A stretch of 64,000 nucleotides of DNA, taken from Bradyrhizobium sp. G127 (GTDB lineage: Bacteria; Pseudomonadota; Alphaproteobacteria; Rhizobiales; Xanthobacteraceae). The stretch spans positions 248,001-312,000 of the forward strand of contig NZ_JAKFGN010000001.1 in assembly GCF_021502575.1 (NCBI RefSeq), given 5' to 3'. Below, piece after piece: positions 44,512 to 57,818 of this stretch. The position numbers were made by a program, and so were the translations under genes. The notes below the pieces were generated by a model, which was not told the DNA's origin, did not search any database, and saw only the letters and a list, made by a program, of their open reading frames with translations. Each line of letters begins with the position of its first letter. Positions within the stretch are counted from its first letter, which is position 1.

Positions 44512-44789
44512 CGCCGCAGTGTATCCCGTTGCTCATGTCCCGGTAGGGACGTGAAATTCCAAACACGTTTACGCCCGAGGGCGCACAGCGCTGTCGGGCG
44601 TTGGCCTCCGGCATCCGGTGCCGGGCGGCGGGTCGAAAAGAAGGTCTTTTCGAGAAGTGGGGCGGTTAAACCCCCGGCAGCCCGGAAAGTCAACAAAAGT
44701 CGGCAAAAACAGCGGTTATGAGGCGATTGTGAAGGACGGTTCCGGGCCTCCCTCTTGCCGAAACAGGTCGTTTCAGGCCATTCCGGGCC

Positions 44790-47738: not shown

Positions 47739-48626
47739 ATGAGTACGCTGGCCAACCATAGCTTCGCCAAGATGAACGGTATCGGCAACGAGATCGTCGT
47801 TGTCGATCTTCGCGATTCGGCGGCGGTCGTCACGCCCGATGAAGCGCGCGCCATCGCGTCGCCCGCCGGCGTGCCCTACGATCAATTGATGGTGTTGCAG
47901 CCGCCGCGCGTGCAAGGCACTGCCGCCTTCATCCGGATTTTCAACAATGACGGCTCGGAAGCCGCGGCCTGCGGCAACGGCATGCGGTGCGTGGCGCGGC
48001 AGGTGTTCGAGGAAACCGGCAAGACCGCGCTGACCTTCGAAACCCGGGCCGGGCTGCTGAACTGCTGGCAGGGACCGTCGCCCGATCTTTATACCGTCGA
48101 CATGGGCGTGCCGAAGTTCGGCTGGAAGGATATCCCGCTCGCCGAGGAGTTTCGCGACACGCGCTATATCGAATTGCAGGTCGGGCCGATCGACGCGCCG
48201 GTGCTGCATTCGCCTTCGGTGGTCAGCATGGGCAACCCGCACGCCATCTTCTGGGTCGACGACATTGAGGCCTACGATCTCGAACGCTTCGGCCCGTTGC
48301 TGGAAAACCATCCGATCTTCCCCGACCGCGCCAACATCACGCTCGCCCATATCGTGGACCGCGAGCATATCGTCATGCGCACCTGGGAGCGCGGCGCGGG
48401 GCTGACCAAGGCCTGTGGTTCGGCGGCTTGTGCCACCGCAGTGGCAGCGGCCCGGCTGAAGCGGACCGAGCGCACGGTGCATATGAAGCTGCCCGGCGGC
48501 GAACTGACCATCGAATGGCGCACACAGGACGATCACGTGCTGATGACTGGCCCAGCGGCCTTCGAGTTCGAGGGCCATTTCGATCCGGCGCTGTTCGCGA
48601 GTGTGGCGGCTGACAGGTCCGTATAA
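47739..48626 (+). CDS. dapF: Diaminopimelate epimerase
   Basis: 295 residues. [17 protein letters not shown] at the start, the active-site cysteine C78 in [13 protein letters not shown], and the second one in [18 protein letters not shown] are the catalytic pair. It converts LL- to meso-diaminopimelate for lysine and cell wall. The family usually ends soon after the [10 protein letters not shown] segment; here a tail [15 protein letters not shown] follows, and its last codons are the 5' arm of a large hairpin (48594-48676) whose arm ends at the stop codon. Confidence 0.97.
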
Positions 48627-48761
48627 TGCCTCCAGCGCTCGCGTATACGGACCTGTCAGCCGAAGCCACACTCGAAACAATAATTTCGAATGTCCTTATG
48701 AATCCAACGTTCGCACCGAAGGTGCTGCAAGATGAGGCGAACGTCGGATTCAAGGACATTC
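48594..48761 (+). repeat. Twin bulged hairpins A1 and A2 after dapF
   Basis: A1: 5' arm 48594-48624 covers the last dapF codons up to its stop; 3' arm 48645-48676; lower stem GAGTGTGG, a 3-base bulge in the 3' arm, upper stem CGGCTGACAGGTCCGTAT, 20-base loop. A2: 5' arm 48688-48714, 3' arm 48737-48761; lower stem GAATGTCCTT, a 2-base bulge in the 5' arm, upper stem GAATCCAACGTTCGC with one mismatch, 22-base loop. The hairpins are 11 bases apart and A2 ends 12 bases before mtaB. There is no T run, so an ordinary terminator is unlikely. Confidence 0.85.
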
Positions 48762-48773
48762 AGGTCGCCTGAT

Positions 48774-50036
48774 ATGACAGTCGAGGTCGTCACCTTTGGC
48801 TGCCGGCTGAATACCTTCGAGTCGGAAGTGATCCGGCGCGAGGCGGAAGGCGCCGGGCTGCACAACACCATCGTCGTCAACACCTGCGCTGTCACCAACG
48901 AGGCGGTCGCGCAGGCGCGGCAGACCATCCGCAAGCTGCGTCGCGACAAGCCCGGCGCGCGCATCGTGGTCACCGGCTGCGCGGCGCAGACCCAGACGGT
49001 GATGTTCGCTGAGATGACCGAAGTCGATCGCGTGCTCGGCAACGATGACAAGATGCGCGGCGGTGCGTGGCGCGATACGCGGGCGGCGTTCGAGACGGCC
49101 TTCGATGTGCCGCACGAAAAGCTCGCGGTCTCCGACATCATGGCCGTCACCGAGATGGCTCCGCATCTGGCCGCGGGTTTCCAGAGCGGCATGCCGCGCG
49201 TTTTCGTGCAGGTCCAGAACGGCTGCGATCATCGCTGCACCTTCTGCATCATCCCCTACGGACGCGGCAACTCGCGTTCGGTGGCGATGGGCGCGGTGGT
49301 CGACCAGGTGCGCGCGCTGACCGAGGCGGGACACGCCGAGATCGTGCTGACCGGCGTCGATCTCACCAGTTATGGCGCGGACCTGCCGGGGGCCCCGAAG
49401 CTCGGAACGCTGACGAAACAGATCCTCAAGCATGTGCCTGAGCTGAGACGGCTGCGGATTTCGTCGATCGATTCCATCGAGGCCGATCGCGATCTGCTCG
49501 ATGTCATTGCGACCGACGAGCGGCTGATGCCGCATCTCCACCTGTCATTGCAGGCCGGCGACGATCTGGTTCTCAAGCGCATGAAGCGGCGGCATACGCG
49601 CGCCGATGCCATCGACTTTTGCCGCCAGATACGGCGCTTGCGGCCGGACATGGCCTTCGGCGCCGACATCATCGCGGGCTTTCCGACTGAAACCGAGGAG
49701 ATGTTCACGCGCTCGCAGGATCTGGTTGACGAATGCGGCCTGACATTTCTGCATGTGTTTCCCTACTCGAAGCGTCCCGGCACGCCGGCCGCGCGGATGC
49801 CGCAGATCGATGGCCGTGTCATCAGGGAGAGGGCCAAACGTTTGCGCGCGTCGGGCGAAGCCGCGTTGCGCCGCCGGCTTGCGTCCGAGATCGGCGCGAC
49901 GCGCCATGTGCTGATCGAAAGTGCGACGCAGGGGCGCACGGAGCATTTTGTGCCCGTCGCGATCGCGGGTGAGGCCCAAGGCGCCGTGCGTGCGCTGAAG
50001 ATCGCCGGCCACGATGGTGAGCGATTGCTCACATAG
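48774..50036 (+). CDS. mtaB: tRNA threonylcarbamoyladenosine methylthiotransferase
   Basis: 420 residues of a MiaB/MtaB-type radical SAM enzyme. The second cluster's cysteines are C10 (VVTFGCRLN), C38 and C69 (VTGCAAQ); the radical SAM motif is C151, C155, C158 (NGCDHRCTFCIIPYGRG). The N-terminal TFGCRLNTFESE and IPYGRGNSRS identify the MtaB subgroup, which methylthiolates t6A37 of tRNA. The TRAM region is at the end. The start ATG 48774 is set by the N-terminal motif; it follows the A2 hairpin. Confidence 0.93.
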   Translation: MTVEVVTFGCRLNTFESEVIRREAEGAGLHNTIVVNTCAVTNEAVAQARQTIRKLRRDKPGARIVVTGCAAQTQTVMFAEMTEVDRVLGNDDKMRGGAWRDTRAAFETAFDVPHEKLAVSDIMAVTEMAPHLAAGFQSGMPRVFVQVQNGCDHRCTFCIIPYGRGNSRSVAMGAVVDQVRALTEAGHAEIVLTGVDLTSYGADLPGAPKLGTLTKQILKHVPELRRLRISSIDSIEADRDLLDVIATDERLMPHLHLSLQAGDDLVLKRMKRRHTRADAIDFCRQIRRLRPDMAFGADIIAGFPTETEEMFTRSQDLVDECGLTFLHVFPYSKRPGTPAARMPQIDGRVIRERAKRLRASGEAALRRRLASEIGATRHVLIESATQGRTEHFVPVAIAGEAQGAVRALKIAGHDGERLLT

Positions 50037-50199
50037 AGACGATCTGCGTCGGCGCGGCGTTGTTATCTTCAATTTGCAGCGCAATTGATGTAATGAAGTT
50101 ACCATGCATCAAGGCTGCGTTCGCAAAACCGCAAGACGCCTTTCAGGCTGGCGCCCTTCGTGGTCTTTGCAAAATATCTGACGCCCGAGGAGAGAATCC

Positions 50200-51180
50200 A
50201 TGTCGCTCGATTCCGATGTGATCGTTGACCGCCGCCGTATTCGTCGCAAGCTGACGTTCTGGCGCGTGGTCGCGGCGCTGGGTGCTATCGCCGCGGTGGT
50301 CGCCGTCGCGGTCGTGGTGTCGCCGTCAGGCCGCGGTGCGATTTCGGGATCGAATGCGATCGCGCGGGTCAAGATCGACGGACTCATCCGCAGTGACCAG
50401 ACCCGGGTCGAGGCGCTGGAGCGTCTGGAGAAGTCATCGGCCGCCGCCGTGATTGTGCACATCAATTCGCCGGGCGGCACCACCGCCGGCTCCGAACAGC
50501 TTTACGACGCGCTGATGCGCCTGAAAGCGAAGAAGCCGCTGGTCGTGGTGGTGGAAGGCCTCGCGGCATCGGGCGGATATATCGCGGCGCTGGCGTCGGA
50601 CCAGATCATCGCCCAGCAGACCTCACTGGTCGGATCGATCGGCGTCCTGTTTCAGATTCCGAATGTGTCGGATCTGCTCAAGACCGTCGGCGTCAAGGTC
50701 GAGGAAGTGAAGTCGTCGCCGTTGAAGGCTGCACCCAACGGCTACGAGCCGACAAGTCCGGAGGCGCGGGCGGCGCTGGATTCATTGGTGAAGGATTCCT
50801 ACGCCTGGTTTCGCGGTCTGGTGAAAGAGCGCCGCAACATGGATGACGCAACGTTGCAGACCGTGGCTGACGGCCGCGTGTTCACCGGCCGTCAGGCCGT
50901 GGGTCTCAAGCTGATCGATCAGCTTGGCGATGAGAAAACCGCCGTCGCGTGGCTGGTTGCGCAAAAGAAGGTCGGTTCGGATGTGCCGGTGAAAGATTTC
51001 AAACTCTCTCCGCGCTTCGGCGACATGACTTTTCTGCGGGTGACCGCGTCCATGGCGCTGGATGCCATCGGGCTGGGGGCGATCTCACGTCAACTTGAAC
51101 AGGCCGGCGTCGTGCAGGCGGTCGATCGCTTCGGCCTCGATGGCATGCTTGCGCTGTGGCAGCCGTCGCCCGCCAATTGA
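50200..51180 (+). CDS. sppA: Signal peptide peptidase SppA (short form)
   Basis: 326 residues. The membrane anchor VVAALGAIAAVVAVAVVV is near the N-terminus. The catalytic serine S124 is in VEGLAASGGYIAALA and the lysine K176 in VKSSPLKAAPN, and the substrate region VIVHINSPGGTTAGSEQLYDAL is conserved. The protein degrades cleaved signal peptides in the inner membrane. It is the 36K-type single-repeat form. It is upstream of ihfB and lapA in a common gammaproteobacterial and alphaproteobacterial order, with intergenic gaps large enough for separate promoters. Confidence 0.94.
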   Translation: MSLDSDVIVDRRRIRRKLTFWRVVAALGAIAAVVAVAVVVSPSGRGAISGSNAIARVKIDGLIRSDQTRVEALERLEKSSAAAVIVHINSPGGTTAGSEQLYDALMRLKAKKPLVVVVEGLAASGGYIAALASDQIIAQQTSLVGSIGVLFQIPNVSDLLKTVGVKVEEVKSSPLKAAPNGYEPTSPEARAALDSLVKDSYAWFRGLVKERRNMDDATLQTVADGRVFTGRQAVGLKLIDQLGDEKTAVAWLVAQKKVGSDVPVKDFKLSPRFGDMTFLRVTASMALDAIGLGAISRQLEQAGVVQAVDRFGLDGMLALWQPSPAN

Positions 51181-51360
51181 TCCGGATCAGTCGTCATGAA
51201 TCCGGCTTCAGCCGATCTTCACTGCGTTGCGGTCGGGGCCGCAACAACGAAACGCGACATTTGTCACGTGATTTAGCCGCGCTTCATTTCGAATTAGCGA
51301 CTTGACAGTCCACGGCTTTTTCACGGAAATGTCTATCCGCACGCACGGGTCCAACATTCA

Positions 51361-51669
51361 ATGATCAAATCCGAACTCGTTCAACGCATCGCCGAGCATA
51401 ACCCGCATCTGTATCAGCGGGATGTCGAGAACATCGTGAATGCCATCCTCGATGAAATCGTCGCCGCCCTGGCGCGTGGCGATCGGGTCGAGCTGCGCGG
51501 TTTTGGAGCCTTTTCGGTCAAGCATCGCCCCGCCCGCGCCGGGCGCAATCCACGCACCGGCGAGCATGTGCCGGTCGAGCAAAAGAGCGTGCCGTTCTTC
51601 AAGACCGGCAAGGAAATGCGTGAACGCCTCAACCGCGACGAAGCGTCTGATCCGGCTCCGGCGACCTGA
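51361..51669 (+). CDS. ihfB: Integration host factor subunit beta
   Basis: 102 residues: [63 protein letters not shown] and [15 protein letters not shown] are IhfB signatures, with the DNA-bending proline arm in GRNPRTG. It bends DNA together with IhfA (elsewhere). The region 51181-51360 upstream has TTGACA at 51302, a possible -35, but no convincing -10. A C-terminal [10 protein letters not shown] tail follows. Confidence 0.96.
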
Positions 51670-51746
51670 TCCGGCAGACTGCAGAATAATTCCGAGGTGC
51701 GGCCGCGCAGCTTCGCGGGTCGGATAGCCGGTTGCGAGGACGCACG

Positions 51747-52145
51747 ATGCTCCGCAAGATTTTCAACGCTCTGGTGATCCTGCCGCTCGCGATTCTGTTT
51801 GTCGTGTTCGCCGTCGCCAACCGCCATGTCGTCACGCTGTCGTTCGATCCTTTCAACTCCAGCGATCCCGGGCTCGGCGTCACGCTGCCGCTGTTCGTCG
51901 TCATCATCGCGGTCGCGATCTTCGGCGTGATGGCGGGGGGTATCGCCACATGGTTTGGCCAGCGCCATTGGCGGCGGGCCGCCCGGCAGAACGAGGCCGA
52001 GGCCCGCCACGTCCGCGCCGAACTGGCTGATTTGCGCGAGCGCGCGCTGGCGGCGTCGCGGAGCGGGGAAAATCAGGTTCCCGTGGCCGGCTCCGGTCCC
52101 GGTCTGGGCGCGCCTTATCCAGTACCCACTTTCCGAAGTTCGTGA
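51747..52145 (+). CDS. lapA: LapA (DUF1049) family inner-membrane protein
   Basis: 132 residues with two transmembrane helices (NALVILPLAILFVVFAVANR and LPLFVVIIAVAIFGVMAGGIATWF), followed by a coiled coil (RRAARQNEAEARHVRAELADLRERAL). LapA-type proteins help regulate lipopolysaccharide assembly. The normal core ends about residue 115; the last codons, PYPVPTFRSS, are encoded by the 5' arm of the B1 hairpin and the stop is the arm's end. Neighbours are ihfB (78 bases upstream) and trpF. Confidence 0.88.
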   Translation: MLRKIFNALVILPLAILFVVFAVANRHVVTLSFDPFNSSDPGLGVTLPLFVVIIAVAIFGVMAGGIATWFGQRHWRRAARQNEAEARHVRAELADLRERALAASRSGENQVPVAGSGPGLGAPYPVPTFRSS

Positions 52146-52284
52146 TCCACCTCGGCAGCGCCTTTCACGAACTTCGGAAAGTCGTGGGTACTGGCAAGTT
52201 TATGATTCCAGTACCGCTTTCTATTGGAAGTTCCTGAACGGGCCTTGCAGCTTGCGCCGCAGGAACTTCCAATAGGCGGTACTG
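52119..52284 (+). repeat. Twin bulged hairpins B1 and B2 after lapA
   Basis: B1: 5' arm 52119-52145 ends on the lapA stop; 3' arm 52165-52194; lower stem CCAGTACCCAC, a 3-base bulge in the 3' arm, upper stem TTTCCGAAGTTCGTGA, 19-base loop. B2: 5' arm 52209-52236, 3' arm 52260-52284; lower stem CAGTACCGC, a 3-base bulge in the 5' arm, upper stem CTATTGGAAGTTCCTG, 23-base loop. Spacing between them is 14 bases. The architecture matches the twin hairpins after dapF. Confidence 0.85.
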
Positions 52285-52388: not shown

Positions 52389-53069
52389 ATGTCATTTGCG
52401 GTCAAAATCTGCGGACTGTCCACGCGCGAGACCCTTGAGGTCGCGCTGGATGCTGGCGCGGATATGGTGGGCTTCGTGTTCTTCGAGGCGTCGCCCCGCC
52501 ATATCGGTCTGGGCGCCGCGCGCGACCTTGGCCGCCAGGTGAAGGGCCGCGCTCTCAAGGTGGCGCTGACGGTGGACGCCGATGACGCTGCGCTGGAGAA
52601 TTGCATCGAGGCCCTGCAGCCCGGACTGTTGCAGCTCCACGGCAGCGAGAGCGTGGCGCGGGTGCGTGACATCAAACATAAATTCGGCCTGCCGGTGATG
52701 AAGGTGCTGTCCGTCGCGACGGCTGCGGATCTCGCGAGCCTTCCCGGTTATGCTGCGGTGGCCGACCGCATCCTGTTCGATGCGCGTGCGCCGAAGGATG
52801 CGACGCGCCCCGGCGGTCTCGGTGTGCCGTTCGACTGGCATCTGCTGGAGAACATCAGGTTGACGATTCCGTTCATGGTCGGCGGCGGGCTCAATGTCGG
52901 CAATGTCGCCGAAGCCGTCCGCGTCACCCATGCCAATGGCGTCGACGTGTCGTCGGGGGTGGAAAGCGCGCCCGGCGTGAAAGATCCCGACATGATCCGT
53001 GCCTTCATTCGCGCCGCGCGCGACGCGGAGCGCGCGACAACTTCATCGAAGATTGCGAGCAGCGTATGA
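52389..53069 (+). CDS. trpF: Phosphoribosylanthranilate isomerase
   Basis: 226 residues of a TIM barrel: [35 protein letters not shown] begins with the catalytic cysteine; [19 protein letters not shown] and [17 protein letters not shown] with [18 protein letters not shown] are conserved phosphate-binding motifs. It isomerises PRA to CDRP in tryptophan synthesis. It is the first gene of trpF-trpB-trpA; trpB overlaps its stop by 4 bases (ATGA). Confidence 0.97.
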
Positions 53070-57511: not shown

Positions 57512-57818
57512 CGCCCCGGACGCAGCGCATCACGTCAGTGGTGCGCTGCCGAGCCGGGGCCGTTGCGCATCGGATCTGTAACGGTCCCGGTTCTGCGAAG
57601 CAGCGCTGCGCGCTGCATCGCGCCCGGGACACCCGCGATGCAGGTTTGAGCACTCGTCATTCCGGGATGCGTCTTCCTGGACGCTGGCCCGGATGCTTGA
57701 ACCCGTCATTCCGGGATGCGCGTTCTGCACGCGCAGGCCCGGAATCCATGACTGCGGGAATTTGGCTCGTGGCCATGGATTCCGGGTTCGCGCGAAGACG
57801 CGCGCCCCGGAATGACGG
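57512..57818. repeat. Stack of palindromic repeats downstream of folC
   Basis: (1) 57512-57561, arms with GCCCCGG...GCAGCGC and the complement. (2) 57584-57630, GTCCCGG with CCGGGAC. (3) 57655-57700, a partial CGTCATTCCGGGATGCG unit. (4) 57703-57818, a large inverted repeat with arms of about 48 bases starting CGTCATTCCGGG and each ending CCCGGAATCCATG. All four resemble dispersed Bradyrhizobiaceae elements. They fill the gap after the trp-acc-fol run. Confidence 0.75.

Follow-up and report, generated by a model that had tools for sequence, protein, structure and literature searches.

Twin bulged hairpins after dapF and lapA are very probably copies of a non-autonomous IS630-type mobile element

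The 64,000-nucleotide stretch of Bradyrhizobium sp. G127 DNA analysed here (contig NZ_JAKFGN010000001.1, positions 248,001 to 312,000; hereafter the window) carries two long hairpins in series at each of two gene junctions. We conclude that these hairpin pairs, elements A and B, are very probably copies of a non-autonomous miniature inverted-repeat transposable element (MITE) of the IS630/Tc1-mariner type, ~160 bp long and composed of two palindromes in inverted arrangement. With the genes assigned by Pfam domains, A lies between dapF (47739..48626) and an MtaB-like radical SAM gene (48774..50036), and B between lapA (51732..52145) and trpF (52389..53069), all on the plus strand. Each insertion changed the C-terminus of one gene: the final residues and the stop codon of dapF are now supplied by element A, and lapA ends in residues read from the first B hairpin, where relatives have AIGRDKHGAAL or similar.

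In all four hairpins, 8-11 bp of lower stem are followed by a bulge of 2-3 nt and ~15-18 bp of upper stem, and the bulged arm is always the one next to the spacer. Hairpin A1 (48598..48674, this and all following element coordinates on the plus strand) consists of 10 bp, a bulge of 2-3 nt in the 3' arm, ~18 bp and a loop of 18 nt; its outer (5') arm is of the GTGTGG kind, and its inner (3') arm is an inverted copy of the outer arm with extra bases (GAA). An A/T-rich spacer (48675..48687) separates it from A2 (48688..48761), in which the inner (5') arm holds the extra bases and the outer (3') arm, of the GTGTCC kind, is one base longer than the family consensus. B1 (52119..52194) is bulged in the 3' (inner) arm and B2 (52209..52284) in the 5' (inner) arm, with a spacer at 52195..52208. 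Without target dinucleotides the whole elements would span 48601..48759 (A, from alignment to the family ends and from empty junctions) and 52122..52282 (B, from alignment to the family and from the junctions of relatives). An initial annotation of this DNA had described two hairpins at each of the two loci, mirror-symmetric bulges (3' arm of the first hairpin, 5' arm of the second) and no T run downstream; all of this held, with A starting at 48598, four bases after the 48594 given there. Both folds were more stable than any of 200 dinucleotide shuffles (z = -9.76 for A and -8.25 for B). The four hairpins scored 21-26, and three block shuffles of 704 kb of DNA from the same genome (the window and 32 contiguous stretches, with four matches known beforehand) yielded no hairpin with a score of 17 or more.

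A structural scan of these 704 kb recovered A, B and three more complete twins. Inspection of two apparently solo hairpins revealed a decayed partner in each case, one known copy (C3:410677, within L158) fell under the scan threshold, and palindromes unlike A or B were also picked up. BLAST searches of the genome with A gave eight additional places at E 1e-4 or better; with B they gave only B itself and one weak match (E 0.0015). The initial annotation had called for further copies in related genomes, and these were found: A-type matches occurred in all 29 genomes of the genus sample (Afipia), 1 to 45 in each, numbers that are not copy numbers because at most 28 candidates were scored per genome and palindromes match both strands. 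Across the family samples (296 genomes of 47 genera, two candidates scored per genome), A-type matches were present in 108 genomes and 29 genera and B-type matches in 81 genomes and 23 genera; in the class sample, A-type matches were present in 8 of 385 genomes, the genome studied here included. Eight Roseibium/Labrenzia plasmid records contained A-type matches. The plasmid records gave no match with B, and in viral contigs one A2 arm pattern gave no exact match. On the Roseibium aggregatum plasmid NZ_CP045623.1 (L198), the element starts within the TAG stop of an SDR oxidoreductase gene, and the A1 upper stem is quite different in sequence with its pairing intact. Among 20 short stretches from other genomes, 13 had both hairpins, six had one and one had none at threshold, and a complete twin was present in five of six stretches from outside the bacterial family.

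A and B stand for two diverged families within a single kind of mobile element, ~160 bp long. The initial annotation had stated that the A and B sequences do not align, which is correct for the two window copies (z = 0.7 and 0.5) and does not extend to the family consensuses: consensus A against reversed consensus B scored 43 (z = 10.9; 300 shuffles reached at most 35), as compared to z = 4.4 against forward B. The reversed alignment pairs A2 with B1, and these two hairpins alone scored 29 against a shuffle maximum of 28. Structure has been kept while sequence changed, as the initial annotation had it, and the cause is the divergence of related families. Several loci show variations on the element. 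At L161:17700-17850 the layout recurs in a hairpin whose arms have a different sequence (CTAGTGGTCC ATC AATTCTCACATTCGC); it stands next to a decayed partner and may represent a third family. Locus L330 (G101:C19) has element matches back to back, as though a copy already present had received a second one at its CTAG end, and in L215 (G022) a shrunken copy, little beyond the two outer arms, occupies the site of a full element in G007.

The element was absent from the same junctions in relatives. At the A junction it was present in none of 23 readable same-genus loci (26 were read, and the script did not locate the junction in three), and at the B junction in none of 31 loci of relatives. In two of the 23 (L010 of G019 and L018 of G027) the dapF-mtaB junction holds a different palindromic insert, CCCCTCACCC...GGGTGAGGGGC, of ~130 bp. 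Empty sites were then sought with the joined flanks of 13 sites, and partners were read among 30 fetched loci. For nine of the 13 an empty partner was found, with best-match gaps of 3, 1, 3, 2, 3, 2, 2, 1 and 1 nt between the flanks. A duplicated dinucleotide predicts a gap of 2 nt, and best-partner gaps of 1-3 nt fit a 2-bp duplication. In two of the nine the empty site is literally TA (L162 vs. L200 and L150 vs. L214); one further partner, with 39 nt between the flanks, retains the element in shrunken form. Element ends are mostly CTAG, and the length from CTAG to CTAG is 162-169 bp. In the window, A is flanked by GA (48599-48600) and TC (48760-48761) and B by CA (52120-52121) and TG (52283-52284), where relatives have a single dinucleotide; both pairs would be decayed TA.

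Because TA and CTAG stand at the element ends, IS630 transposases were sought as the mover. The Pfam family DDE_3 was present in 8 of the 29 genus genomes. One insertion sequence (IS), L246, encodes a transposase that both Pfam and NCBIfam place in IS630 and that matched helix-turn-helix families; its lineage was matched in 90 of 391 genomes of the wider family (E 1e-30 or better). Among 30 IS630 loci, 14 have CTAGTG at both ends and terminal repeats matching the outer arm of the A2 consensus at 19-22 of 24 positions. In four others the ends are CTAGTCA-like, or CTATTCA on one side, and match at 16-19 of 24; a further locus has CTAGTG on one side, and the rest have other ends or none credible. 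The best IS end shared 23 of 25 bases with the outer arm of the A2 consensus, which none of 300 shuffles equalled; no end this close was found in the genus, the matching IS coming from related genera. In L267, one end is of the GTGTCC kind, as in A2, and the other of the GTGTGG kind, as in A1; the GTGTGG-kind end matched the minority A1 variant GGTTCAGAAGTTCGC at 23 of 25 positions, a variant found unchanged in 4 of the 36 aligned copies. Two genomes (G083 and G044) hold both the L246-type IS and A-type elements. The two IS that were folded (L246 and L248) have plain ends and form no such hairpins there. An IS630 of the L113 type, with ends CTAGTGGTTCATCACAG, was considered as the mover and matched poorly, and the L246 type was taken instead.

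Like a MITE, the element is short (~160 bp), dispersed (all 29 genus genomes) and devoid of a transposase gene. It has IS630-like terminal inverted repeats in A2 and the minority A1 arm, with a weak resemblance in the main A1 arm and B1 and none above chance in B2, and a TA target duplication at the empty sites that in the window would be seen in decayed form. The description of a mobile palindromic element in the initial annotation is upheld by the many copies, the empty sites in relatives and the IS630-like ends. An IS630 transposase would bind the two outer arms, excise the element and insert it at TA, preferably within CTAG.

The bulges may explain why the twin stays together. The outer arm of the A2 consensus aligns with the IS repeat free of gaps, and the inner arm has three additional bases. 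Among 49 distinct twins, extra bases were present on the 3' arm of the first hairpin in 47 (2-4 nt) and on the 5' arm of the second in all 49 (2-4 nt, in one case 7). The exceptions in the first hairpin are L160:13493, with three extra bases at the junction and its other irregularity in the loop, and L184. All of 13 additional twins from other genomes had extra bases on both inner arms, and one decayed copy (L157:6202) is bulge-free. Transposases of the Tc1/mariner type bind their ends through two helix-turn-helix motifs, according to the part of the literature consulted (PMC2170065). Extra bases, 2-4 in number, between the halves of the inner repeat would spoil the spacing for such paired domains, and altered half-site spacing plausibly disables the inner ends. 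Only the outer ends would then be usable, and the twin would transpose whole. We regard it as possible, with somewhat more doubt than confidence, that each inner arm is the outer-arm repeat with 2-4 bases added and that the twin moves as a unit for this reason; silencing of the inner ends would account for the mirror symmetry of the bulges.

The genomic context of the insertions was examined at 74 places, mostly the best match per genome. Of these, 53 had both hairpins and 51 remained after two duplicates were dropped. Genes were called by a simple home-made gene finder trained on the genome studied here (G000). Neighbouring genes were tandem at 35 of the 51 sites, divergent at 13 and convergent at 2, with one side unknown at 1. 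None of the 51 sites was inside a predicted gene, and some predicted genes extend up to 65 nt into the element. At 10 sites the TAG stop of the neighbour is the TAG of the CTAG end. Whether TAG at element edges is in frame more often overall was considered and rejected: 20 of 74 were in frame, but another 20 were in a second frame and 5 in the third, so that only the exact-distance result from the 10 sites was used. In 684 kb there are 244 CTAG sites, 143 of them intergenic (some lying in the elements themselves), 34 at stop codons and 67 in genes, which cover ~80% of the DNA; the window has 14 as compared to 58 expected. CTAG is thus uncommon within genes and frequent in intergenic DNA and at TAG stops, so insertions at this motif, which IS630 prefers, would be mostly harmless.

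Several observations weigh against this account of the element. No IS630 transposase was found in the genome studied here, either with Pfam DDE_3 or among relatives of L246, and at E 1e-30 or better only three genus genomes (G027, G019 and G022) have an L246 relative, the best-scoring at 40% identity (G027). As none was found in this genome and few in the genus, the mover must either have been lost or be foreign. Resemblance to IS ends is weak for the main A1 arm (z = 3.3, with up to 3 of 300 shuffles doing equally well), stands at z = 2.8-3.6 for B1 and is not above chance for B2 (equalled by 19 of 300 shuffles); nor was a partner found for B. Among poorer empty matches the gaps range from -6 to 4, and target duplications are eroded at most sites. 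The resemblance over 25 bp is the sole link between element and transposase, and movement was not observed.

To characterise the pairing of the arms, 36 of 40 A copies (omitting L051, L055 and the identical or nearly identical duplicates L044 and L006) and 26 of 30 B copies (omitting L172, L175, L187 and L196) were aligned. In A, 97.6% of cells were paired and two-sided changes occurred in 31 of 52 pairs (shuffles 9.8; slid structures at most 8). In B, the corresponding values were 94.1% and 19 of 52 (shuffles 8.4; slid structures at most 2). Further pair types in B were not above shuffles (29 vs. 29.1), and one bulge pair, peculiar to the window copy, is not formed in 22 of the 26 copies. The covariation that the initial annotation had proposed to check is present in both families. 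The loops are also partly conserved in the A1 and A2 alignments (e.g. GCTGCAAaATGA in hairpin A2), for which pairing gives no reason. With six edge pairs set aside, mismatches comprised 21 G-T and 31 A-C (p = 0.21), so G-T was not the commoner, in a test that is blind if either strand can be RNA. Selection on an RNA from this strand predicts more G-T than A-C, and as none was seen, the complementarity looks like a property of the DNA, with binding sites or arm-to-arm copying as its source and no sign of a dedicated RNA.

The explanation that survives best beside selection concerns only how the arms stay complementary, and leaves the element a MITE: one arm would be copied from the other by mutation at a replication hairpin. 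In A, the 102 two-sided changed cells exceed the 28 one-sided standard pairs plus 45 unpaired cells, and G-T intermediates show no excess, both as copying would have it; the bulge, in contrast, escapes correction, and selection on transposase sites could yield the same picture. We consider copying a possibility, if the less favoured one.

A second explanation, which we consider improbable, is that the twins belong to the Caulobacter CIR repeat class and are retained for CcrM methylation at GANTC. The two-arm layout agrees with the arms, linker, TA termini and intergenic position of CIR as outlined in part of a review (PMC2229807), and A copies contain 2.1 GANTC each as compared to 0.63 in shuffles. 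These sites lie in the stem, on both arms (33 and 32 of 36 copies at columns 111 and 160 of alignment A1), and not in the terminal loop. B copies are hardly enriched (0.85 vs. 0.66, in the spacer in 15 of 26), and the length is ~163-168 bp as compared to ~110. A CcrM link was dropped on this difference between A and B. One IS end also contains GAGTC, and GANTC (CcrM-type) sites could tie transposition to replication.

It is very unlikely that a structured RNA, be it regulatory, stabilising or terminating, is under selection in the dapF-mtaB and lapA-trpF transcripts. The very stable folds, the strong covariation in both alignments and the intergenic, often tandem, position of the copies would suit such an RNA. 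The same junctions of relatives lack the element, the mismatches show no excess of G-T (within the limit of that test), only 2 of the 51 sites are convergent and 13 are divergent, and Rfam gave no match above the gathering score at the coordinates of the A or B hairpins. The regulatory RNA suggested by the initial annotation is therefore disfavoured; it had itself named beforehand, as counting against its proposal, the loss of the arms in close relatives with normal gene ends, which was seen at both junctions. Local effects of the hairpins on mRNA are possible.

Finally, a REP/REPIN (BIME) moved by a RAYT (Y1) transposase, the BIME-like unit of the initial annotation, can be dismissed almost entirely: REPINs are inverted dimers of palindromes and share with the twins the bulges and a conserved end tetranucleotide, but a Y1 transposase was found in only 3 of the 29 genus genomes and not in the genome studied here, the empty sites fit a TA duplication, the A2 arm matches IS630 ends, and the hairpin units are ~75 nt with CTAG ends instead of 20-40 bp with a GTAG or CGTC tag.

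Two other features of the window deserve mention. Long palindromes, several of a CGTCAT... kind, are present at 57703-57818 (and in L129, L131, L135 and L155), and by look may be alphaproteobacterial CGTC-type repeats; an Rfam match to the ffh sRNA family lies at 44564-44615 on the minus strand.

Read as IS630-type MITEs, these repeats, a superfamily abundant in Afipia and related bacteria, acquire a likely mover as well as a rule for their targets, and inactivation of the inner ends by a spacer insertion would be a simple and testable reason for the odd twin-hairpin shape. For genome annotation, strong covariation at such loci need not indicate RNA. The reading may also account for the two-armed CIR repeats. 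A wider proposal, which we put forward as speculative and rather unlikely, is an alphaproteobacterial MITE superfamily with four IS630 terminal repeats, the inner two silenced by a spacer insertion of 2-4 bp, in which arm-to-arm copying keeps the complementarity and to which the CIR repeats belong.

A search of the open-licence literature found no description of this element, and the available text of a review of prokaryotic MITEs (PMC10969869) mentions neither IS630 nor rhizobia. MITEPye1 of Paracoccus is linked to IS1182 in the portion of its description consulted (PMC11578231). The following comparisons likewise draw on parts of their sources. Br-REP1 and Br-REP2 of Bradyrhizobium are palindromic, intergenic and from related bacteria, but their printed consensuses (20 and ~40 nt) are by eye unlike the arms of A or B; Br-REP2 is stated to belong to a larger repeat also present in Afipia, with the data not shown in that paper (PMC5082802). 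GTAG and CGTC REPs form inverted palindrome dimers as well, with units of 20-40 bp and stems of 5-13 bp, and the GTAG type is tied to RAYT transposases (PMC3733652). Correia/NEMIS elements of Neisseria are palindromic, mobile, of 107 and 155 bp and have TA ends, but their two ends form one stem, whereas here two hairpins stand in series (PMC2229807). RUP of Streptococcus pneumoniae, a MITE of 107 bp linked to IS630-Spn1 with a 9-bp terminal inverted repeat, is likewise short, non-autonomous and intergenic, with IS630-like ends and a TA target; it is a single end-to-end stem, unlike the two palindromes, inner-end insertions and divergent families described here (PMC2229807). The closest look-alike is the CIR repeat of Caulobacter, also present in Brucella, whose mobility the review calls unexplained (PMC2229807). 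Compared by description only, CIR differs in its ~110 bp, in GANTC at the terminal loop and in having no known terminal inverted repeat or mover, and it shares with the twins a pair of long inverted repeats with a linker between them, TA termini, intergenic position, alphaproteobacterial hosts and several sequence types (PMC2229807).

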